Source: Natronomonas moolapensis 8.8.11 (lineage in GTDB: Archaea; Halobacteriota; Halobacteria; Halobacteriales; Haloarculaceae). From it: a stretch of 64,000 nucleotides of DNA. The notes beneath the pieces are model-generated. The model worked only from the letters and a program-made list of their open reading frames with translations. It searched no databases and was not told the DNA's origin. Below, in pieces: positions 3,575 to 48,201 of the stretch. The stretch spans positions 558,001 through 622,000 of the forward strand of contig NC_020388.1 of assembly GCF_000591055.1 (NCBI RefSeq), in the 5' to 3' direction. The stretch's first letter is position 1. Every line of letters starts with the position of its first letter. The translations under genes and the position numbers were made by a program.

Positions 3575-4624
3575 ATGAAAGGTGACGACCTGCGTATCCG
3601 CCGGAAAGCCCAGCAGTTGGGCTCCTCGACGCTCGCCGTGACTGTGCCCGCCGAGTGGGCACACCACCACGACCTCGAGAAGGGCGACGAACTCATCGTC
3701 CAACGCGACGAGAACGGCAACTCGTTGCTTGTCACCCCGGAGCACCCCGCGCTCACCGAAACAGAGACCACCATCGCCGCCGGGGAGATGAGCGCCGACG
3801 CGCTCTCGCGGGCGGTCGTCACACAGTACGTACTCGGCCGAGGGTTCATACGGATCGAGGCCGAGAACGGCCTCGATCCGGGGCAGTACGACGCCGTCCT
3901 CGACGCCGAACGCCGCCTGATGGGACTCGGCGTCGTCGAGGAGTCGGCTACCCACATCACGATCCGCTGTTCGGTCGACCCCGGGGACTTCGATCTGCCG
4001 ACGCTGTTCGGCCGACTGGGGCGGACCGAGGCGACGATTCGATCGAGCGCCGTCGACGCCCTCCTCGAAGGCGATCCGGCGGCCGCCCGTCGCGCGCGAA
4101 ACCGGAGCCCACAGCTGAAAAAGCTGTTTTCGCTGTTTCTCAGGCTCGTGTTCACCACGTATCGGAACCCCCGACTCAACCAGGCCGTCGGCGTCGGAAC
4201 CGGCTTTCCGCTCATCGGCTACCGATCCGCCGCACAGGACGTCGCCCTGATGGCCGGGATCGCAGACGAGATCGCCTCCATCGCCGCCGATCGGATCGAG
4301 GACCCCCTGCCCGGCGAGGTGGCCGAGGGCGTCGAGTCGGTCCACGCGGGCCTCGGCGGGGCCGCCGAAGCCGTTCGGGAAGCGGTCGTCGACCCGGAGT
4401 ACGCCCGGGTGACGGCGGCCCGCGAGCGGATTGACCGGTTTCACGACCGGTCCGCGGCCGCGATCGATCACCTCGAAACCGAACGGCCGGAGCCGCTGCT
4501 CGCGCTCCACCGGATTCACCTCCTCTTCGAACGCAGCGCGCGCCACGCTGAGGACACCCTCGACGTGGCGACCCACCTCGCTTTCAGGGAGAGCCCGGAC
4601 GTCGTGACGCGGAACGACCGGTGA
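3575..4624 (+). CDS. PhoU-like regulator with N-terminal AbrB/SpoVT domain
   Basis: 349 residues from MKGDDLRIRR; an ATG four codons upstream (3563) is an alternative start. Residues 5-50 (RRKAQQLGSSTLAVTVPAEWA...GDELIV) form a swapped-hairpin AbrB/MazE-type DNA-binding fold. The rest is helical and ends in a PhoU-type bundle (AAIDHLETERPEPLLALHRIHLLFERSARHAEDTLDVA). In haloarchaea this architecture is annotated as a phosphate-uptake regulator, which both binds DNA and senses the Pst transport state. No pst genes are adjacent, so the target may be elsewhere or may be the upstream symporter. Confidence 0.8.
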   Translation: MKGDDLRIRRKAQQLGSSTLAVTVPAEWAHHHDLEKGDELIVQRDENGNSLLVTPEHPALTETETTIAAGEMSADALSRAVVTQYVLGRGFIRIEAENGLDPGQYDAVLDAERRLMGLGVVEESATHITIRCSVDPGDFDLPTLFGRLGRTEATIRSSAVDALLEGDPAAARRARNRSPQLKKLFSLFLRLVFTTYRNPRLNQAVGVGTGFPLIGYRSAAQDVALMAGIADEIASIAADRIEDPLPGEVAEGVESVHAGLGGAAEAVREAVVDPEYARVTAARERIDRFHDRSAAAIDHLETERPEPLLALHRIHLLFERSARHAEDTLDVATHLAFRESPDVVTRNDR

Positions 4625-19654: not shown

Positions 19655-20488
19655 TCACTCCAGTGTGAGGGGCGCAAGCGTCGCGAACAGAGCTTCCTCC
19701 GTCCGGACGACCTCGCTACCCTGGTTCGGAACCGTATTGAGCCAAAGGTCGAACCGCGCGTTCGGTTCGTCGCCGATGGCCTCCGCGCGTGGCTCACAGT
19801 CGAGTATCTCCGGCAACCCCCGTTCGGGGGCGCCGAAGGCGACCGTGAGTCCGTCGGCCGTCCGCCCGGAGAGTTCCCCGAGCCGATCGACCGTCAGTAC
19901 CTCCCCGTGTCTGGACGCGGCGATTCGGACGCCGGCGTCCGGACGGGCGAGGCAGTCGTCGATGGTCGCACGCTCGACGGCGAACCCCGGTGAGGGGTCC
20001 GCCACGAGTTTCGCGCGAACCGGCTCTCGCGAAGAGACCCTGATGGTGACGCGTTCCCCGGCCGAGACCGCCATCGACGGCGGCACCGGCAGGGAGATCG
20101 GGTGTTGCAGTCCGCAATTGACCCGGACGCGCCCGTCAGATCCGACCTCGGTCACGATTCCCTGTCTTAACGACCCCGAACCGTCTGATCCGGAGCCGGT
20201 CTGTGTACGGACACGAAGCGGCGGCAGGACACCGGCGTACTCCAGTTCGTCCCGCTTGCCCCAGGCCTCCTTTCGGAGGTATGGGGGCGTGGCGGCGTAC
20301 TCGAGCACCGTGCCGACGAACCCGTCGCCGAACCGCCCGTCATCGCCACCCTGGTCGGGGTAAACGATGAGGCGGTCGACCCGAAAGACCGTCGCCGCGC
20401 GGGCGACGTAACCGAGTTTGCGAGTCGCCTCGCGTTTGTCCTCGGCTTCCCGGGTCAGAGACGACGGCACGAGCACGCTGTGTGTCAT
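19655..20488 (-). CDS. SPOUT-type RNA methyltransferase (COG2106-like)
   Basis: 277 residues from MTHSVLVPSSLTREAEDKREATRK; the open frame upstream of this ATG crosses the promoter and is not used. N-terminal segment KLGYVARAATVFRVDRLIVYPDQGG...VLEYAATPPYLRKEAW and C-terminal FGAPERGLPEILDCEPRAEAIGD...NTVPNQGSEVVRTEEALFATLAPL match the SPOUT superfamily relatives of human SPOUT1/C9orf114. The GAPERGLPEI and NTVPNQGSEVVRTEEA stretches fit the knotted SAM-binding core. It leads the ribosomal operon, 5 bp before uL3, which suggests a role in rRNA or ribosome maturation. The exact RNA target is unknown. Confidence 0.85.
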   Translation of the reverse strand: MTHSVLVPSSLTREAEDKREATRKLGYVARAATVFRVDRLIVYPDQGGDDGRFGDGFVGTVLEYAATPPYLRKEAWGKRDELEYAGVLPPLRVRTQTGSGSDGSGSLRQGIVTEVGSDGRVRVNCGLQHPISLPVPPSMAVSAGERVTIRVSSREPVRAKLVADPSPGFAVERATIDDCLARPDAGVRIAASRHGEVLTVDRLGELSGRTADGLTVAFGAPERGLPEILDCEPRAEAIGDEPNARFDLWLNTVPNQGSEVVRTEEALFATLAPLTLE

Positions 20489-32443: not shown

Positions 32444-32472
32444 GGGATGGTCTCCAGACCGGAGACCATCCC
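32444..32472 (+). promoter_or_regulatory. 12-bp perfect hairpin in front of the IS66 transposase
   Basis: GGGATGGTCTCC-AGACC-GGAGACCATCCC ends 13 nt before the ATG at 32486. Transcripts entering from outside would carry this stem next to the start codon, a known way for insertion sequences to damp translation of read-through mRNA. Function inferred. Confidence 0.6.
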
Positions 32473-32485
32473 GTCTCGCCTGTTC

Positions 32486-33883
32486 ATGACCTCTTCGGAA
32501 CCTACCAAGGAAGAGATCCTTGAGCGTCTGGTCGCACTTGAGAAAGAGAACGAGGAACTTCGAGAGGAGAACAAGCGGCTCAGAGCCAAGCTTCGGTGGT
32601 ACGAGGGACCCCATACACCACCGAGCAAAGACCAATCGGACCAGGAGGAGTCGTCCTCGTCCGATGGGGACGAGGACGACGAACAACCACGTACTGACGG
32701 TGGCACGCCTGGCCGAAAGTCCGGACATGACCCGGAATGGCGCGACGCTCCTGACCCGGATCAAGAGATCGAGGTTACCTGTGACTGCTGTCCAGACTGT
32801 GGTGAAGCGTTCGACGAGTCGGCGGGCGTCAGCCCCCGACTCGTCGAGGAACTCCCGGATCCACAGCCACCAGAGGTCACACAGTACAACCGCCATCACT
32901 ACGAGTGCCACTCCTGTGGTGCCGAGACTGTCGCCTCACACCCCGACTGCCCCGATGAGGGGCAGTTCGGGGTGAATGTCATCGCACAGGCGGCGCTCTC
33001 TCGGTACGATCACCGCCTTCCCTACCGGAAGATCGCCGATCGCTTCGAACAACTCCACGGACTGGAGTTCACGGGTGCGTCCGCGTGGCACGCGACCGAG
33101 CGCGTTGCACGCGCCGGTCGCTGTGAATACGAGCAGATTCGCCGTCAGATCCAGCAAGCCGACGTTGTCCACGTTGACGAGACTGGAATTAAACGCGACG
33201 GCGAACAGGCATGGATCTGGACGTTCACCACCGAGGAGCACACGCTGTACGTGGCTAGGGAGAGTCGAGGAAGTGATGTTCCCGCGGAAGTCCTCGGCGA
33301 GGACTTCGCGGGAACAGTCGTCTGTGACGGGTGGACGGCGTATCCGGCTTTCAGCAGCAACCTCCAGCGGTGTTGGGCGCATATTCTACGGGAGGCTGAA
33401 GACGCCGCCGAGAAACAGACGGAAGGCGAACCGATCTACCGTGCCCTCAAACAGCTGTACGTCGCTCTCCAGACCCGGCTGGAGAGCGACTTGACAGTCC
33501 GCGAGCGAGCAGAACTCCAACGTGTGGCGCGGAGAGAGCTTGAATCGCTGATAGAACGGTCAGTTCCTGACGGACCAGTGGCAACACTACTCGGCAAGAT
33601 CGAAGGAGGCCTCGACCACTGGCTCACCTTTATCGGTGAGCCAGCGGTCTCCCCAACGAACAACGCCGCTGAAAATGCGCTCCGTGAGCCAGTGGTTCTC
33701 CGGAAAATCATCGGAACACTCCGGAACGACCGCGGTATGTTCGTGCATGAGACGCTGCTGTCCCTGCTGGCGACGTGCCGCCAGCAGGGACGCAATCCCT
33801 ACGACGAGTTCAAGCGAATCGCTCGAAACAACGAGATGATTTCACGAGCTCAGACCGTACCCGCTGTTGCATCCTCGGGGTAA
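32486..33883 (+). CDS. tnpC: IS66 family transposase
   Basis: 465 residues from MTSSEPTKEEILERLVALEK. An N-terminal leucine-zipper-like coiled coil comes first, then a Pro/Asp/Glu-rich linker and a zinc-binding part (CDCCPDCGEAFDES, HHYECHSCGAETVASHPDC). The DDE catalytic domain follows: VVHVDETGIK, TVVCDGWTAYPAF and SPTNNAAENALR hold the three acidic residues. Looks intact and so possibly active. Its gene contains several long perfect inverted repeats. Confidence 0.92.
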   Translation: MTSSEPTKEEILERLVALEKENEELREENKRLRAKLRWYEGPHTPPSKDQSDQEESSSSDGDEDDEQPRTDGGTPGRKSGHDPEWRDAPDPDQEIEVTCDCCPDCGEAFDESAGVSPRLVEELPDPQPPEVTQYNRHHYECHSCGAETVASHPDCPDEGQFGVNVIAQAALSRYDHRLPYRKIADRFEQLHGLEFTGASAWHATERVARAGRCEYEQIRRQIQQADVVHVDETGIKRDGEQAWIWTFTTEEHTLYVARESRGSDVPAEVLGEDFAGTVVCDGWTAYPAFSSNLQRCWAHILREAEDAAEKQTEGEPIYRALKQLYVALQTRLESDLTVRERAELQRVARRELESLIERSVPDGPVATLLGKIEGGLDHWLTFIGEPAVSPTNNAAENALREPVVLRKIIGTLRNDRGMFVHETLLSLLATCRQQGRNPYDEFKRIARNNEMISRAQTVPAVASSG

Positions 33884-34970: not shown

Positions 34971-34978
34971 TGTGGGGG

Positions 34979-34987
34979 TATATAAAA
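34979..34987 (+). promoter_or_regulatory. TATA box of the first recombinase gene
   Basis: TATATAAAA, the strongest TATA match in this part of the window, 60 nt upstream of the ATG at 35047. Confidence 0.55.
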
Positions 34988-35240
34988 AACCAATTAAATC
35001 AGATCTTATCGAATCATCTGGCAAGGATGGACTACTAATTATACATATGGTAGTGAACCTACCCAAAGGAGCTGTTGAGTTCCTTGATGAGCTTGAGGAG
35101 CATAGCACAGAGGCAACGGTTCAGTCCTACAGATGGGCTATCCGATCCGTTACCGAGTTTCAGCAACGACAGGATGAGACTCCAACCGAAATAACGGTAG
35201 ACAATGTTGCAGAGTTTATTTTGTTCGAGGGGTCAAAATA

Positions 35241-36307
35241 TACTGACGGCTAAACTTATTTGTGTATAGAGCTTGTTTTTACGGTATGGACTACTTGGAG
35301 AAGATCACTGTTGACGAACTCCAAGAGATTTTAGCCGAAGTTGATGAAAAGAAACCAGTTCAGAGAATTCTTGCCGGTATCGCCTACAAGGACGGTGTCG
35401 AGCAGCAGACAATTGCGGAGCGGCATGATGTCCATCCAAACACGGTTCGTAACTGGCTGATCCGACTCGAACGGCTCGACTCAGAGCCGTTCGAGTCGGT
35501 CGTCTACGATGATCCTCGCCCCGGCCAATCACGCGAACTTGACGAAGCTGACCACGACCAATTCATCGAAGCTCTCCACGATTCTCCCAAAGAAGTTGGA
35601 CTTGATGCGCGTGCGTGGACGGTTCCGCTAGCCCAGCAGTATCTTGAAGATGAGTTCGATATTGAGTACTGCCGCCGTCATATCCGGCGATTGATGTCCG
35701 AGGCCGGGCTGTCCTGGAAGACAGCCCGGCCAGAGTACGTCAAAGCTGATGAACGAGCTCAGGATGCGTTCCGCAAAGGCTTCAAAAAAAGACGGACGAT
35801 CTGGACGACGACTACACAATCATAGCAATCGACCAGACACGCCAAGAGATCACGACGGATCTTGTCCACGCGTGGTTTCCAGAAAAAACGCGCCCGACAC
35901 TCCCGGTGTCGGGCGCGTGGGAGAGTCTCAAACTGCTGGGCGGTGTCACCGCCAGCGGTGACACCTTCTTTCTGAAGTGTGAAGACAACTTTACCGCTGA
36001 CATCACGACGCGGTTACTGGACGCACTCCAGACCGAGTTCGGCGAGAAAATCTGTGTTGTCCTGGACAATGCCCCGTATTTCGCGGCGAACGATGTCCAC
36101 GACTACGTTGAAGACACACCGATCGAACTGTGCCACCTTCCGCGGGGTTCACCGGAGCTGAACCCCGCGGAAGGGTGCTGGCAGAAACTCAATCAGCGGC
36201 TTGGTAACCAACTTTTCGAAGAACTTGATGAACTGAGAGAAGCCGTCTTCGATGCGCTTGCGTCTATAGACCCACCAAACATCTATAATTATCTCTGTCC
36301 GTGAGTA
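35241..36307 (+). mobile_element. IS630 family element, copy 1
   Basis: 1067 bp from TACTGACGG to CCGTGAGTA, flanked by TA on both sides (35239-35240, 36308-36309), the hallmark of IS630/mariner insertion. Its encoded proteins are identical to those of copy 2 at 40216-41282, and no nucleotide difference was noticed, so transposition was recent. Confidence 0.92.
35286..36304 (+). CDS. IS630 transposase (two frames joined by -1 frameshift), copy 1
   Basis: Frame 1 from MDYLEKITVDELQEILAEVDEK holds the helix-turn-helix DNA-binding part (QQTIAERHDVHPNTVRNWLIRLERL) and stops at 35825. A run of seven A followed by G at 35784-35790 lets the ribosome slip -1 into the second frame. That frame contains the DDE domain: AIDQT, VVLDNAPYF and LPRGSPELNPAEGCWQKLNQ. 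The joined product is 339 residues, normal for IS630. Four long inverted repeats lie within the gene. Confidence 0.88.
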
Positions 36308-36997
36308 TATGCTACTACAACACTACACGGAGTTATCCGATCAATATCAAATTATATCGCGCACACGCGTGACGAGACGCCCCCTTACCTCGTCAAACAA
36401 CAGATCAATGAGGCGGTTCGAACGCTTCGAAAAGAGATCGTACTAGAAACAGGGATTCGTTCTTCAGAGTTGGATAACCCCCGTAGTGGTTCAACTGAGG
36501 AAGCAGAACACTACGAAGTAGATTTCATTGAATCACTGGTTGAGTACTTGCGCCACTGTAACTACGGAAGTCGAGCACATACGATAGTTGAGGTTCTCGT
36601 TGAAACAGGGTGTTTCGCAAACTCTCTCCAGCAACTTGATCTGGATCACGTAGATTTCCAGCAAGGAACGATCTCGATTCAAAGCTCAAAAACAAGGGCG
36701 ATTCAGCCGCAGACCTACGATGTGTCTCTCTCAGGCACGTGTATCGACGTTCTTGAAACGTACGTTGCCCGTGAGCGTATTGAAAACAAGGGAGATGACG
36801 CTATGGCGTTGTTCACTACGGGTCATGGTCGAATAAGTACTGCAACGATTCGTCGATCACTCAAGCAAGCCGCAGAGAAGGCATTCCAGTATCATACCAC
36901 TCAGAACGGAACGGAGTGCCCTGACAAGCTTCGTGAACAGGCTGCCTCGCTGTCGCTTCATGATCTTCGAGTATACGCTCTCACCCAACTTCACGAG

Positions 36998-37002
36998 TAA
37001 TG
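36998..37002 (+). promoter_or_regulatory. stop/start overlap TAATG between recombinases 1 and 2
   Basis: The TAA of recombinase 1 shares its last A with the ATG of recombinase 2, indicating coupled translation of the original pair. Confidence 0.7.
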
Positions 37003-37375
37003 GCACAGTCGTTGGCTGACGCACTGGCGGAGATCAACGATCCCGAGACGATTGAGCAACTGCTCTCAGGAATCAATGAGAGCGATAACACTCAATCGTC
37101 ATCTCCGTCTTCAGCTTCCAATCAGTCAACGCTATCCAAGCTCTACGAACGGTTTCTAGGCCGACGGCAGAATCGAAGTCCGGCAACAATCAGTAATTAC
37201 AAGCGAACGCTCCCCGGGTTTGTGCGGTTTGCAGCGAGCCGACATGCGTTGTATCCGGGAGAAATAACAACGGAACTCGTTGACGCGTACGTCGATTCAC
37301 TTCTACAAGAGTACGATAACGATGCCACCATTTTACTTCACACCTCGAACGTTCGCCCTTGGCTCAAATGGCTTA

Positions 37376-38445
37376 TACTGAGGGCTAAAAATTCATGTAA
37401 CTCCAGCCACGAGAAACGGTATGGCGAGGCTGGAGAAGGTCTCTGTCGAAGACCTCCGCCAGATCCTGGCGGAGGTCGATGAAGCCGACGCAGCAAAGCG
37501 GATTATGGCTGCGATTACCTACAAGGAGATCGACGATCTGACGCAGACAGACGCTGCCGAACTCTACGGATTTTCCAGTAGTTGGGCCTCAAAGTGGTTC
37601 ACCCGACTCGAACGGCTCGCCGACGAGCCGTTCGAGGAGGTTGTCTATGATAAACCACGAGAAGGCAGGCCGTCCGAGCTTTCTGACAAAGAACACGACC
37701 AGTTCGTCGAGGCTCTTCACGACTCACCCGGAGAAGTCAGATACGACGCACCCGCGTGGTCTGTTCCATTGGCGCGTCACTATCTCTCCGAGGAGTTCGG
37801 TGTTGAGTACTGCGAACGTCACGTCCGACGACTGATCTCCGAGGCCGGGCTGTCCTGGAAGACAGCCCGGCCGGAGTTCTACAAATCCGACGAGAGAGCC
37901 CAAGAAGCCTGGCAGGAAGGGTTCAAAAAAAGCGCGACAACTTGGACGATGAATACACGATCCTGACCATCGATCAGACGCGTCAGGTACTCTCGACGCT
38001 GATCTATGCGTGGTTTCCGGAAGGGGAGCGCCCGTCACTTCCGGTGACGGGCGCGTGGGATAGCATCAAGTTGCTCGGTGCAGTCAGCGATTCTAGGGAG
38101 ACGTTCTTTCTGCCGTGTGCAGAGAACTTCAACAGCGACACGACGATTCGCTTGCTAGACGCACTCCAGACAGAGTTCGGCAAGAAAATCTGCGTCATCT
38201 TGGACAACGCGTCGTATTTCACGGCTAACGCAGTCCAGGAGTTCGTCGAAGACACGCCGATCGAACTATGCTACCTTCCGCGGGGTTCACCGGAGCTGAA
38301 CCCCGCGGAAGAGTGCTGGCGACAACTCGATCAAGAACTTGGCAACCGTCTGTTCGACACACTCGACGAACTTCGTGATGCTGCGCTCTGTGCACTCAAC
38401 CGGATTACCGTTCCAGATGTCTTTACGTACTTATGTCCGTGAGTA
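37376..38445 (+). mobile_element. IS630 family element, diverged lineage
   Basis: About 1.07 kb with ends TACTGAGGG... and ...CCGTGAG-TA. The exact right end is uncertain because TATT follows instead of a clean TA duplication. Same layout as copies 1 and 2, including the A7-G slippery site and the positions of three hairpins, but clearly different in sequence. Confidence 0.8.
37421..38442 (+). CDS. IS630 transposase (two frames, -1 frameshift), diverged lineage
   Basis: Frame 1 MARLEKVSVEDLRQILAEVDEADAAK... with HTH (QTDAAELYGFSSSWASKWFTRLERL), stopping at 37966. A7-G at 37925-37931 allows a -1 slip into the frame that ends at 38442 with TIDQT, VILDNASYF and LPRGSPELNPAEECWRQLDQ. The joined product is 340 residues. 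Roughly two thirds identical to copy 1 by eye. Confidence 0.87.
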
Positions 38446-39205
38446 TTAATAAGCGGGAACTGTGCAGAGAAGCGGTCTACCATATCCTTGATAAAGACGA
38501 GCTCGGTCTGTCACCGAATGCACGCGAGGAGGCACTTCCGGAGAAGGAAGCCACCGCCATACTGAAGACACTCCGAGAACAACAGTACGGATCTAACCTC
38601 CACGCTCTGTTGGAGCTTCTGTGGAACACAGGCATACGCATCGGAGAAATCCGAGCGCTTGATCTTAGAGATGTCAATCAAGCCGATAACGACCTTGCTG
38701 TCCGGCATCGACCGGACGAAGCAACTCGGATCAAGAATGGAAGAGCGGGTGACGCAACAAATGGTGATGGAGAGCGAGATCTCAATCTTCACCCACGTGT
38801 TGTGGACGCTCTCTCGGCTTACATCAATCTCAATCGGCCTGAAACGACTGATGGGTTTGGACGTGACCCATTGTTCACGACAGCCCACGGACGGCCCGCC
38901 CGTTCGACACTCCGTCGCTGGGTATACGAAGCGACCAGCTGTCGATGGGTTGATCCCGAGCTCACAGAACGGAGCTGCGATGGCTCCTGCAATCCTGACT
39001 CGAATGTCTGCGCGCACAGCTACTACCCGCACGCAGTTCGCCGTGGAGCGATCGTTACCCATCTCAGTAACGGCCTCCGCCCGGACAAAGCTGCTGAACG
39101 ATTCGACGTCTCAACCGATGTGATTCGCAAACACTACGACCCGCGAAGCAAAGCCCGCCGAAAGAACGACCGTGCCGATGCGGTCAAAGACGCCTGGAGT
39201 GATTC

Positions 39206-39313
39206 ATGAACTCCACCCGAAATCAAGGACAAACACACGCGGCCACGCAATCAGCGATTGACTATCACAACGCACAGCCAATCAACTTCCAATCAACACC
39301 TCGAAATCAATGA
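39206..39313 (+). CDS. 35-residue linker frame between recombinases
   Basis: ATG overlaps the stop of recombinase 2 (ATGA) and its own stop overlaps the next ATG (ATGA). Product MNSTRNQGQTHAATQSAIDY... is polar and Gln/Asn-rich, without a domain. The double overlap suggests a translated unit rather than chance, but it could be a coupling device only. Confidence 0.4.
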   Translation: MNSTRNQGQTHAATQSAIDYHNAQPINFQSTPRNQ

Positions 39314-39468
39314 CAGAATCAACCGATCCGTTCAATCAAGGAGAGTGCGCGGAACTGCTTGAATCGGTACACAACCAATCAGCGCAGAAAGCGCTACGAT
39401 TCAGACTCATGTATCAAGCCGGAACCCACGTTTCAGAGCTCTCAAACCTCGGTTCTGAAGACGTATAG
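39310..39468 (+). pseudogene. recombinase catalytic-domain fragment with Arg replaced by His
   Basis: 52 codons: MTESTDPFNQGECAELLESV..., then LRFRLMYQAGTHVSELSNLGSEDV, stop. This is the first catalytic box of a tyrosine recombinase, where G-L-R-V-S-E-L is expected; here His stands for the catalytic Arg. After the TAG the same frame continues LDAGTIHNNNQIY into the start of the next gene, as if a nonsense change had cut a longer protein. Confidence 0.5.
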
Positions 39469-39505
39469 TTAGACGCAGGCACGATACACAATAATAACCA
39501 AATCT

Positions 39506-40078
39506 ATGACCGATAACGAAAGAGAGCTCACAAACGAGGAATACGCGACGTTAGTTAAATCAGCACACGACCACTCACCCCGCAACGGGTTCACTGTCTA
39601 CCTCCTGGGTCAAACAGGCCTGAAACGAGACGAGGCTGCCAACTTCACGCCAGAGTGGTTTGACCAGGAGGAACAGGTAGTGACAGTTCCAGATGAACAA
39701 GAGGGGTGGAAACCGGCCAGACCACATGCTGCCCGTCAAATCCCGTTGTCAACACCAACAGCAAACAACATAGCGAAATATATTGAGGAACTAGATTCCT
39801 CGGTATTTCGTGTATCTGGGTCGGCAATTTACGATCGAGTCGTCACCGCCGGAGAACATGCCGGTATTAGCGGTGTATCCCCCAAAACACTCCGGCGTAC
39901 GTACGTAAGGCGGTTGTACAACTCCGGTCTATGTGGAGGACTGATTTCGGAGATCATTGGCGTCCAGTCGGAAGCTGAAGGAATGTCTAGGTCCCTTTAT
40001 TACAATCGTCTTGATCACTCAGACATAGACGAGTATTGGAGAGATGACAGCAGGTTAGTCAATCTCAATATGAATTGA
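39506..40078 (+). CDS. tyrosine recombinase-like protein 3 of the trio
   Basis: 190 residues: only a catalytic domain, without the N-terminal core-binding part. GQTGLKRDEAANFTPEWF holds the first Arg region, SPKTLRRTYVRRLYNSG the second box (Lys for the usual His), and IGVQSEAEGMSRSLYYNRLDHSDID the final Tyr region. It ends 137 bp before IS630 copy 2. Probably works with, or regulates, recombinase 2, or is a decaying paralogue. Confidence 0.6.
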   Translation: MTDNERELTNEEYATLVKSAHDHSPRNGFTVYLLGQTGLKRDEAANFTPEWFDQEEQVVTVPDEQEGWKPARPHAARQIPLSTPTANNIAKYIEELDSSVFRVSGSAIYDRVVTAGEHAGISGVSPKTLRRTYVRRLYNSGLCGGLISEIIGVQSEAEGMSRSLYYNRLDHSDIDEYWRDDSRLVNLNMN

Positions 40079-40215: not shown

Positions 40216-41282
40216 TACTGACGGCTAAACTTATTTGTGTATAGAGCTTGTTTTTACGGTATGGACTACTTGGAGAAGATCACTGTTGACGAACTCCAAG
40301 AGATTTTAGCCGAAGTTGATGAAAAGAAACCAGTTCAGAGAATTCTTGCCGGTATCGCCTACAAGGACGGTGTCGAGCAGCAGACAATTGCGGAGCGGCA
40401 TGATGTCCATCCAAACACGGTTCGTAACTGGCTGATCCGACTCGAACGGCTCGACTCAGAGCCGTTCGAGTCGGTCGTCTACGATGATCCTCGCCCCGGC
40501 CAATCACGCGAACTTGACGAAGCTGACCACGACCAATTCATCGAAGCTCTCCACGATTCTCCCAAAGAAGTTGGACTTGATGCGCGTGCGTGGACGGTTC
40601 CGCTAGCCCAGCAGTATCTTGAAGATGAGTTCGATATTGAGTACTGCCGCCGTCATATCCGGCGATTGATGTCCGAGGCCGGGCTGTCCTGGAAGACAGC
40701 CCGGCCAGAGTACGTCAAAGCTGATGAACGAGCTCAGGATGCGTTCCGCAAAGGCTTCAAAAAAAGACGGACGATCTGGACGACGACTACACAATCATAG
40801 CAATCGACCAGACACGCCAAGAGATCACGACGGATCTTGTCCACGCGTGGTTTCCAGAAAAAACGCGCCCGACACTCCCGGTGTCGGGCGCGTGGGAGAG
40901 TCTCAAACTGCTGGGCGGTGTCACCGCCAGCGGTGACACCTTCTTTCTGAAGTGTGAAGACAACTTTACCGCTGACATCACGACGCGGTTACTGGACGCA
41001 CTCCAGACCGAGTTCGGCGAGAAAATCTGTGTTGTCCTGGACAATGCCCCGTATTTCGCGGCGAACGATGTCCACGACTACGTTGAAGACACACCGATCG
41101 AACTGTGCCACCTTCCGCGGGGTTCACCGGAGCTGAACCCCGCGGAAGGGTGCTGGCAGAAACTCAATCAGCGGCTTGGTAACCAACTTTTCGAAGAACT
41201 TGATGAACTGAGAGAAGCCGTCTTCGATGCGCTTGCGTCTATAGACCCACCAAACATCTATAATTATCTCTGTCCGTGAGTA
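40216..41282 (+). mobile_element. IS630 family element, copy 2
   Basis: Same 1067-bp element as copy 1 (constant offset 4975 bp), flanked by TA (40214-40215 and 41283-41284). It separates the recombinase trio from a histidine-kinase 3' stub. Confidence 0.92.
40261..41279 (+). CDS. IS630 transposase (two frames, -1 frameshift), copy 2
   Basis: Encodes the same two overlapping frames as copy 1, with frame 1 ending at 40800 and frame 2 at 41279, the A7-G slippery run at 40759-40765 and identical protein sequences. The two copies lie in the same orientation 5 kb apart, so recombination between them could delete the whole trio. Confidence 0.88.
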
Positions 41283-47264: not shown

Positions 47265-48201
47265 GGCTCTATTGAATCCACGGACGGCGTCGGGGTAAGT
47301 CGTCAGAACGATTGAAATGAAGCGGAAGAAGTGCTTCTGTGCAAAAGACTCTCTTCCGCTTCGTCAAACAAGCCGTCTCGGTCGCACGAAAACTTACTGA
47401 TGCTGCGCTGATGCAGATCAGCCATCCTGCCGGCAACGGAGTTGCCGGCTGGAAGCACGCCGTCCTGCATTTTCTCCGGCTTCATATGGATGCGACACTG
47501 CAAGAGGTCCTTGATTGGGCTGAAGAGATGGAGCGGGTACGAGCCGCGCTCGACTTAGAGCGCGGCGCGTTCCCCGGCCCTTCGGCACTCTGTAAGTCGT
47601 TTGACCGCGCACCGATGCGAATCTGGCGCGAGCTGCTCCGACTCTTGTCGGAGCTGCTCGAGCAGTCTGGTCACGCCGCTATCGACGCCACCTATTTCGA
47701 CCGCCATCAGGCGTCAACTCACTATCTCAACCGCTGTGATCGTAAGGTACAGACCGTCCAAGCGACGTTCCTCGTCGATACCGCCCACGGCGCGGTGATC
47801 GACGTACACTGTAGCACGAAGTGGCCAAACGGGACGAACGTCGGCCCGCAGGTCGCCCTGCGGAACGCAGGCGACCTGCGGAGCCTCGCCGCCGACAAAG
47901 GCTACGACGATATGAGCTTCCGAGACCAACTCCGTTCAGAAGGCGTAAGACCGCTGATTAAACACCGCGTCTTCGCACCCTACGACCACGCGCACAACGC
48001 GCGGATCGAAGACGATCTCTACAATCAGCGGTCGGTCTGTGAGACTGTGAACTCGGTGATTAAGCGCTCGTACGGCTCCGCCGTCCGAGCGCGTGCCTGG
48101 TACCGTCAGTTCCGAGAAATCACTCTCGCCGCGGCAGTCTACAACATCGAACGAACCCTCAAACAATGAACCCCATCGCTGTATGCGGATTCAATAGAGC
48201 C
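47265..48201 (+). mobile_element. IS5 family insertion sequence
   Basis: 937 bp with 15-bp perfect inverted repeats GGCTCTATTGAATCC / GGATTCAATAGAGCC and a 9-bp target duplication GTGCGTAAT (47256-47264, 48202-48210). It carries one complete transposase gene. Confidence 0.94.
47339..48169 (+). CDS. IS5 family transposase
   Basis: 276 residues from a GTG (QKTLFRFVKQAVSVARKL). DDE residues lie in HAAIDATYFDRHQAS, RSLAADKGYDDMSFRDQLR and CETVNSVIKRSYGSAVRARAWYRQFREI, the last being the typical IS5 C1 signature. Length is normal for haloarchaeal IS5 (ISH1-like) transposases. The gene contains a 12-bp perfect inverted repeat (47846-47857/47870-47881). Confidence 0.92.
   Translation: MQKTLFRFVKQAVSVARKLTDAALMQISHPAGNGVAGWKHAVLHFLRLHMDATLQEVLDWAEEMERVRAALDLERGAFPGPSALCKSFDRAPMRIWRELLRLLSELLEQSGHAAIDATYFDRHQASTHYLNRCDRKVQTVQATFLVDTAHGAVIDVHCSTKWPNGTNVGPQVALRNAGDLRSLAADKGYDDMSFRDQLRSEGVRPLIKHRVFAPYDHAHNARIEDDLYNQRSVCETVNSVIKRSYGSAVRARAWYRQFREITLAAAVYNIERTLKQ

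Follow-up and report, generated by a model that had tools for sequence, protein, structure and literature searches.

The closest described systems are the coding inverted repeats of yeast, in which homogenization of the arms together with inversion of the spacer is presented as the signature of template switching and in which spacer inversions are reported at arms longer than 9 bp (PMC8604942), and the inverted repeats of nematomorph mitochondrial genes, for which the authors suggest a repeat-conversion mechanism (PMC6649704). Here we analyzed a stretch of 64,000 nt from Natronomonas moolapensis 8.8.11 (NC_020388.1, positions 558,001-622,000, forward strand; hereafter, the window), in which the transposase genes of insertion sequences (IS) of the IS630 family carry several long, perfect hairpins within their coding sequence. 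An earlier note made from the letters of the window (the original prediction) had described four such stems in one element and matching stems in a diverged relative and had taken them to covary, through codon choice, under the influence of RNA or DNA structure. As described below, such stems occur in great excess in several haloarchaeal IS families, and they covary without marks of selection on mRNA structure. On balance, we favor the explanation that they are coding palindromes kept perfect by template switching at the DNA level, perhaps with transposition exposing and recopying certain IS. No earlier report of hairpins within the coding sequence of transposases from haloarchaea or Deinococcus was found in the titles and abstract openings of open-licence PMC articles among the matches listed.

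The first IS630 element (copy 1, A type) occupies 35289-36304 (as for all transposase genes and stems of the window given here, on the + strand) and contains the Pfam domains HTH_33/HTH_32 and DDE_3, a combination of HTH and DDE_3 that identifies an IS630 family transposase. Its HTH part (35289-35825, the first frame) and its DDE_3 part (about 35795-36304) are in different frames, and an A-run (35784-35790) lies where these overlap. We located five stems in copy 1: S1 (35462-35477/35484-35499; 16-bp arms, loop of 6), S2 (35702-35713/35720-35731; 12-bp arms, loop of 6), S3 (35888-35900/35906-35918; 13-bp arms, loop of 5), S3b (35942-35952/35955-35965; 11-bp arms, loop of 2), and S4 (36136-36151/36159-36174; 16-bp arms, loop of 7, with a spacer that is inverted in four relatives). 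The four stems of the original prediction are all where it had placed them, S3 having 13 bp rather than 12, and S3b adds to that list. When folded as DNA, S1 reaches -21.7 kcal/mol with a z-score of -7.9, and the z-scores of the single-stranded DNA folds of five window stems range from -7.0 to -7.9. The diverged element (B type, 37421-38442), which is also recognized by Pfam and also split into two frames, with an A-run in the frame overlap at 37925-37931, contains all four of the matching stems, namely S1 (37607-37619/37624-37636; 13-bp arms, loop of 4), S2 (37843-37854/37861-37872; 12-bp arms, loop of 6), S3 (38028-38038/38044-38054; 11-bp arms, loop of 5), and S4 (38275-38289/38297-38311; 15-bp arms, loop of 7). 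It has, in addition, a stem that is not in copy 1 and had been missed (S0, 37451-37462/37466-37477; 12-bp arms, loop of 3). Also missed was a third element (40237-41279), which is identical to 35262-36304 and has its stems at 40437-40474, 40677-40706, 40863-40893, 40917-40940, and 41111-41149. The host genome as a whole contains six A-type copies, three B-type copies, and one further diverged relative, L001. At the place aligned with S3b, the B element has no stem, and L001 has a stem of other sequence. Between copy 1 and the B element, an A-T pair of S3 has become T-A and the encoded RPTLPVSGAW has become RPSLPVTGAW, both exactly as predicted.

To measure the excess over chance, synonymous codons were permuted within each gene, which keeps the protein, the codon usage, and the composition (100 shuffles for IS630). 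The IS630 sample consisted of open-frame parts only: 37 distinct N-parts and 35 C-parts from the group of A- and B-type relatives (A/B group) and 1 and 34, respectively, from the group of L001. Hairpins with arms of at least 10 bp numbered 95 compared with 0.95 after shuffling in the A/B N-parts (n = 37), 65 compared with 0.18 in the A/B C-parts (n = 35), and 52 compared with 0.50 in the L001-group C-parts (n = 34); because the IS630 rows are kin, it is the ratio of observed to expected that is meaningful here and not a P value. The excess over protein-preserving shuffles, whose absence would have counted against the original prediction, is about 100-fold or more. In a census of the window (perfect hairpins with arms of at least 10 and loops of 3-10, where "at" an open reading frame (ORF) means within 10 bases), 20 of the 21 hairpins are in or at transposase ORFs, which total 5.4 kb of the 64 kb. 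A binomial test of this placement gives 6e-21, a value that overstates independence because two of the elements are identical and their hairpins are not independent. The sole exception is a hairpin with 13-bp arms and a loop of 4 at 3851-3880, within an ORF (3655-4434) that has no Pfam match. A sample of the host genome (20 stretches of 20 kb, 400 kb in all) contains 27 hairpins with arms of at least 10 bp and 14 with arms of at least 11 bp. Six of these 14 can be assigned to transposase genes (in or at them): a pair of identical DDE_Tnp_1 ORFs accounts for four, an IS1595-type gene contains the fifth, and the sixth (L131:13138) has the stem sequence of an IS4-type stem. We also noted that a second 12-bp hairpin lies across the ORF end of two identical DDE_Tnp_1 genes (L127:5144-5172 and L139:11807-11835).

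Similar stems had been predicted in the IS66 and IS5 genes of the window, and they are indeed present. The IS66-family transposase gene (32447-33883), whose relatives have similar stems, carries them at 32444-32472, 32650-32680, 33461-33490, 33619-33644, and 33760-33791. The first of these is a 12-bp hairpin with the ATG inside it, and in the relatives L180, L190, and L191, too, a hairpin covers the start codon, with different spacers. The DDE_Tnp_1 (IS4/IS5-type) transposase gene (47339-48169) has one 12-bp stem with a 12-base loop at 47846-47881. For other families in Halobacteria, we started from the 30 best-scoring loci each, some of whose ORFs are fragments; the distinct ORFs scored were 24 for PF01609 (IS4/IS5), 29 for PF03050 (IS66), 29 for PF12762 (IS1595), 26 for PF13610 (IS6-like), 30 for PF07282 (TnpB), 30 for PF00118 (thermosome), and 29 for PF00589 (integrases), and 24 of 30 loci were scored for IS110. 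With arms of at least 11 bp, we counted 69 hairpins in IS4/IS5 genes (0.6 after shuffling), 77 in IS66 (0.57), 52 in IS1595 (0.57), and 26 in IS110 (0.13). A stem is present in 24/24, 23/29, 26/29, and 15/24 genes of these families, respectively, and the stems represent 17, 25, 21, and 16 distinct arm sequences. The IS6-like genes, in contrast, have a single hairpin at this threshold compared with 0.07 after shuffling (two compared with 0.37 when arms of at least 10 bp are counted). None with arms of at least 11 bp was found in the TnpB genes (0.03 expected from shuffles; two compared with 0.13 at 10 bp), in the integrases (0.07 expected; none compared with 0.33 at 10 bp), or in 55 kb of thermosome genes (0.87 expected; seven compared with 4.3 at 10 bp). 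A search of 136 haloarchaeal genomes gave no match for IS256, which makes a comparison with copy-out elements impossible. Because the stem positions vary among IS subfamilies, we infer that coding hairpins arose repeatedly.

Within a family, many stems have nevertheless stayed in place for long. The IS630 homologues comprised the best 80 of 217 relatives and 30 loci from a further search, and stem positions were counted with arms of at least 8 bp and with repeated copies and the host's own included. In the A/B group (75 loci), stems are found at matching positions in 69 (S1), 66 (S2), 69 (S3), 72 (S4), and 52 (S0) loci. The L001 group (45 loci) has a stem set of its own: 17 loci have S1 (the 18th match is to another hairpin), 37 have S3, and 25 have S3b. 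The S1 and S3b stems of L001 are at the places of S1 and S3b in copy 1, with different arm sequences, and the protein parts of L001 and of the B element are 38% identical. At unchanged amino acids, codon identity is 0.90 in the arms and 0.64 elsewhere in the A/B N part, 0.93 and 0.67 in the A/B C part, and 0.85 and 0.64 in the L001-group C part. Sixteen stretches of viral contigs matched a pattern, and none of them codes for anything related to the DDE domain of IS630.

We then asked what kind of change the arms have undergone, using nine alignments with 391 interior pairs; pairs at the stem ends were excluded, as was any sequence with over three unpaired positions in a stem, and the counts are of distinct types of change per column and not of events on a tree. 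They contain 37 paired Watson-Crick changes, the A-T/T-A swap in S3 being one of them. For RNA stems, the common view is that change proceeds via G-U intermediates (PMC8794818), and transitions would therefore be expected. The paired changes consist of 19 transversions and 18 transitions, and unpaired fourfold sites have 351 and 297, respectively (Fisher P = 0.74). One-sided departures from pairing comprise 36 G-U, 27 A-C, and 34 transversions; the G-U share is 57% (95% interval 44-70%, P = 0.31), and a strong wobble preference is ruled out. A looser count (without IS110) gave 92 G-U, 80 A-C, and 115 other departures. In 33 of the 37 cases, the paired change replaces an amino acid in one arm or both, and in 10 it does so in both; an example of a protein-altering pair is provided by IS4-type genes encoding REWRGRAIP or RAWRGRARP. 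In one IS1595 stem, the covariation score is 0.204 compared with 0.083 after shuffling (none of 500 shuffles scored as high) and is far lower with the partner slid, and two of five measures (pairs with two-sided changes and further pair types) are not above the shuffles. Thus, the covariation proposed in the original prediction is real and general, as the paired changes and the IS1595 shuffle test indicate, but it does not act mainly through codon choice, since most paired changes alter the protein.

A second type of change concerns the spacers, as relatives with unchanged arms and a reverse-complemented spacer occur. We found such spacers in S4 (CCGGAGC/GCTCCGG and CCAGAGC/GCTCTGG), in S1 (GAAACT/TGTTTC, with one mismatch), in IS1595 (CAACC/GGTTG and CGAGA/TCTCG), and in IS110 (CGGC/GCCG). 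Altogether, there are 12 inversion-like pairs, 8 of them from S4; 300 shuffles gave 0.98 such pairs on average and never more than 4. A tree was built without S4 from 67 elements, of which 50 were kept at 2% difference (3 of them without a spacer call); on it, the S4 inversion requires four independent changes, all on end branches, and starred branches force the same number. According to the codons, the inversion turns SPEL into SAPV next to a conserved motif, and this protein change may explain why it does not last. The absence of a clear G-U preference, the ordinary share of transversions, and the repeated spacer flips lead us to conclude that this is covariation without marks of selection on mRNA structure; of the two levels, RNA or DNA, that the original prediction had left side by side, the evidence favors copying at the DNA level.

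Outside the haloarchaea, the distribution of stems is uneven. None of seven bacterial IS66 genes has a stem even with arms of at least 9 bp. Among bacterial IS630 genes, stems with arms of at least 10 bp are present in 4 of 10, three from Deinococcus and one from Azotobacter. Seven Deinococcus transposases have seven stems with arms of at least 11 bp compared with 0.06 expected, and 17 genes from other bacteria have one compared with 0.1 expected; these counts omit an Escherichia coli IS4 fragment, the second ISDra3 copy, and elements scored separately. In 47 kb of a Deinococcus radiodurans plasmid, 10 of 13 hairpins (arms of at least 10 bp) are within transposase coding sequences (CDSs), and the remaining 3 are at or just upstream of ISDra1 copies. 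A perfect hairpin of 17 bp is seen ~173 bases upstream of two D. radiodurans ISDra1 transposase genes (L369:7352-7389 and L369:25683-25720). Deinococcus wulumuqiensis has two hairpins. None was found in the IS4-type genes of Leptolyngbya and Bacteroides (one each), and none of eight IS CDSs in the plasmid stretches from Synechocystis, Sinorhizobium fredii, and Thermus has a stem with arms of at least 9 bp. In other classes of the host phylum, 16 PF01609 genes (from 22 loci, 6 of which had no usable ORF) contain no stem with arms of at least 11 bp, one with at least 10 bp, and six with at least 9 bp compared with 0.6 expected; because these genes are mostly lower in G+C, host and composition effects are not fully separated in this comparison.

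What keeps the arms matched is probably DNA-level copying between them, and we infer that template switching is the agent. The gene would be copied via a single-stranded stage in which the hairpin forms, and synthesis would jump between the arms. A mutation present in only one of them would thereby be either erased or written into its partner; sometimes, the spacer would be flipped instead. Arm-to-arm copying would account for the double changes, protein-altering ones among them, for arms that are nearly perfect, for the inverted spacers, and for the fact that wobble pairs are not clearly preferred. That this copying is tied to transposition is a more tentative proposal, for which we would claim rather less than an even chance: transposition may repeatedly expose and recopy some IS, for example when the gap left by excision is filled from sister copies in a polyploid host that relies on strand annealing for repair. 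Both haloarchaea and Deinococcus are polyploid and repair their DNA by strand annealing. IS6-like elements transpose replicatively, and the transposase is a protein other than TnpB; the scarcity of stems in both fits a link to transposition. A shade more doubtful is the extended version, in which rounds of transposition-coupled excision and repair, in haloarchaea and independently in Deinococcus, would ratchet near-palindromes to perfect ones and thereby force paired amino acid changes. Several observations weigh against the explanation by transposition-driven template switching. Stems are carried by IS110, an element outside the classical cut-and-paste type, and this weakens the part concerning excision gaps. 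Thermus ISTth6 and the cyanobacterial elements have no stems, although Thermus and cyanobacteria are polyploid, and none was found in Deinococcus peraridilitoris. G-U departures are numerically above A-C departures, which leaves room for a weak wobble preference. In the L001-group N part (18 N-parts, gained by trimming), the arms are barely more conserved than the rest (0.72 compared with 0.67). Finally, the persistence of S1 and S3b stems in very diverged relatives also fits selection for a function, and a selected role at the RNA or DNA level could exist alongside the copying.

If such a role were at the RNA level, the stems would be mRNA hairpins under selection that slow ribosomes, recruit RNases, or hide sites and so keep the transposase low. 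The strong conservation of the arms would agree with this, as would the stem that spans the IS66 start codon; because that hairpin includes the ATG in the IS66 gene as well as in relatives, it could block initiation in the RNA. Further, transposases of Halobacterium salinarum are reported to be post-transcriptionally repressed (PMC10134880), and strong stem-loops are reported to mark processing sites in some other H. salinarum genes (PMC8303175). However, wobble is not clearly preferred (36 G-U and 27 A-C), and this, together with the absence of a transition excess in the double changes, the spacer inversions, and the occurrence of arms of at least 11 bp in none of the TnpB and only 1 of 26 IS6-like genes, makes selection on the mRNA an unlikely explanation. 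We regard as slightly less likely again that a DNA hairpin or cruciform is itself selected, e.g. for the control of transposition or the recruitment of a host factor, with arm copying only supplying the hairpin. G-U and A-C are disfavored alike, stems of unlike sequence are kept at one place, and the stems occur across unrelated IS families, all of which would suit such selection; the variation of positions among subfamilies and the fact that four protein-changing S4 inversions reached genomes would not.

Two other explanations have little to recommend them. The original prediction had suggested that the stems might tune a frameshift, and the IS630 copies are indeed split into two frames at an A-run. 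Yet a stem that stimulates frameshifting would be expected a few nt downstream of the slippery site, and no stem is within 50 nt of the frame-overlap A-runs. In copy 1 as in the B element, the preceding stem ends 53 nt before the A-run, and the distance from the A-run to the following stem is about 98 nt; the second A-run of copy 1 (35883-35888) abuts S3 but lies past the first-frame stop (35825), and the single-frame transposases of IS66, IS1595, and IS110 have equivalent hairpins. Stimulation of a programmed frameshift by the stem-loops is thus highly improbable. Chance, base composition, or codon bias can be set aside almost entirely: high G+C does favor stems in general, but shuffles that keep the composition, the protein, and the codon usage yield about 1% of the observed stems, or less, in IS630 and the other positive families, and the control genes are near the shuffled expectation when arms of at least 10 bp are counted.

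With regard to the surroundings of the IS630 elements (34972-40078 of the window), these adjoin or sit between integrase-like ORFs at 36470-37000 and 38433-39209 (both Pfam Phage_integrase) and at 39506-40078, which suggests that they inserted into a cluster of integrase genes. At its gathering score, Rfam has no match within the elements, and its two matches in the window are both elsewhere. The L4-Archaeoglobi ribosomal protein leader (RF03135) matches 20040-20139 on the minus strand with 68 bits.

Covariation is often held to prove that an RNA is functional. In the present case, protein genes show it strongly, it bears no marks of RNA selection, and it alters the protein; archaeal screens for structured RNA could misread these stems. 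If the link to transposition is true, the hairpins would be a sequence record of an element's copying and repair. The stems also offer a simple contrast that lends itself to testing, both among hosts and among families, with stems present in IS630, IS4/IS5, IS66, IS1595, and IS110 and nearly absent from IS6-like elements and TnpB. Compared with known systems, the stems most resemble the coding inverted repeats described for yeast in their arm homogenization, spacer inversion, and clustered nonsynonymous changes, but the yeast cases are scattered recent events, whereas here the hairpins are dense, long conserved, and several per gene in certain mobile elements (PMC8604942). With the IS10 and ISPpu9 systems, they share structure in transposase mRNA; there, the ribosome-binding site and 5' untranslated region are at issue, whereas most stems here are deep in the frame and behave like palindromes of DNA (PMC5006887, PMC8450116). 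The RNA hairpins attributed to template switching provide a parallel in that compensatory changes arise in one copying event and not stepwise, but they are in RNA genes, whereas we are dealing with protein-coding genes and find no evidence of RNA function (PMC8794818). Lastly, the nematomorph mitochondria, as described, also have perfect inverted repeats in functional protein genes; those are respiratory genes with arms of up to 284 bp that are gained and lost between species (PMC6649704), whereas the stems described here have arms of about 10-17 bp, belong to archaeal and Deinococcus transposases, and in many cases stay at fixed positions.
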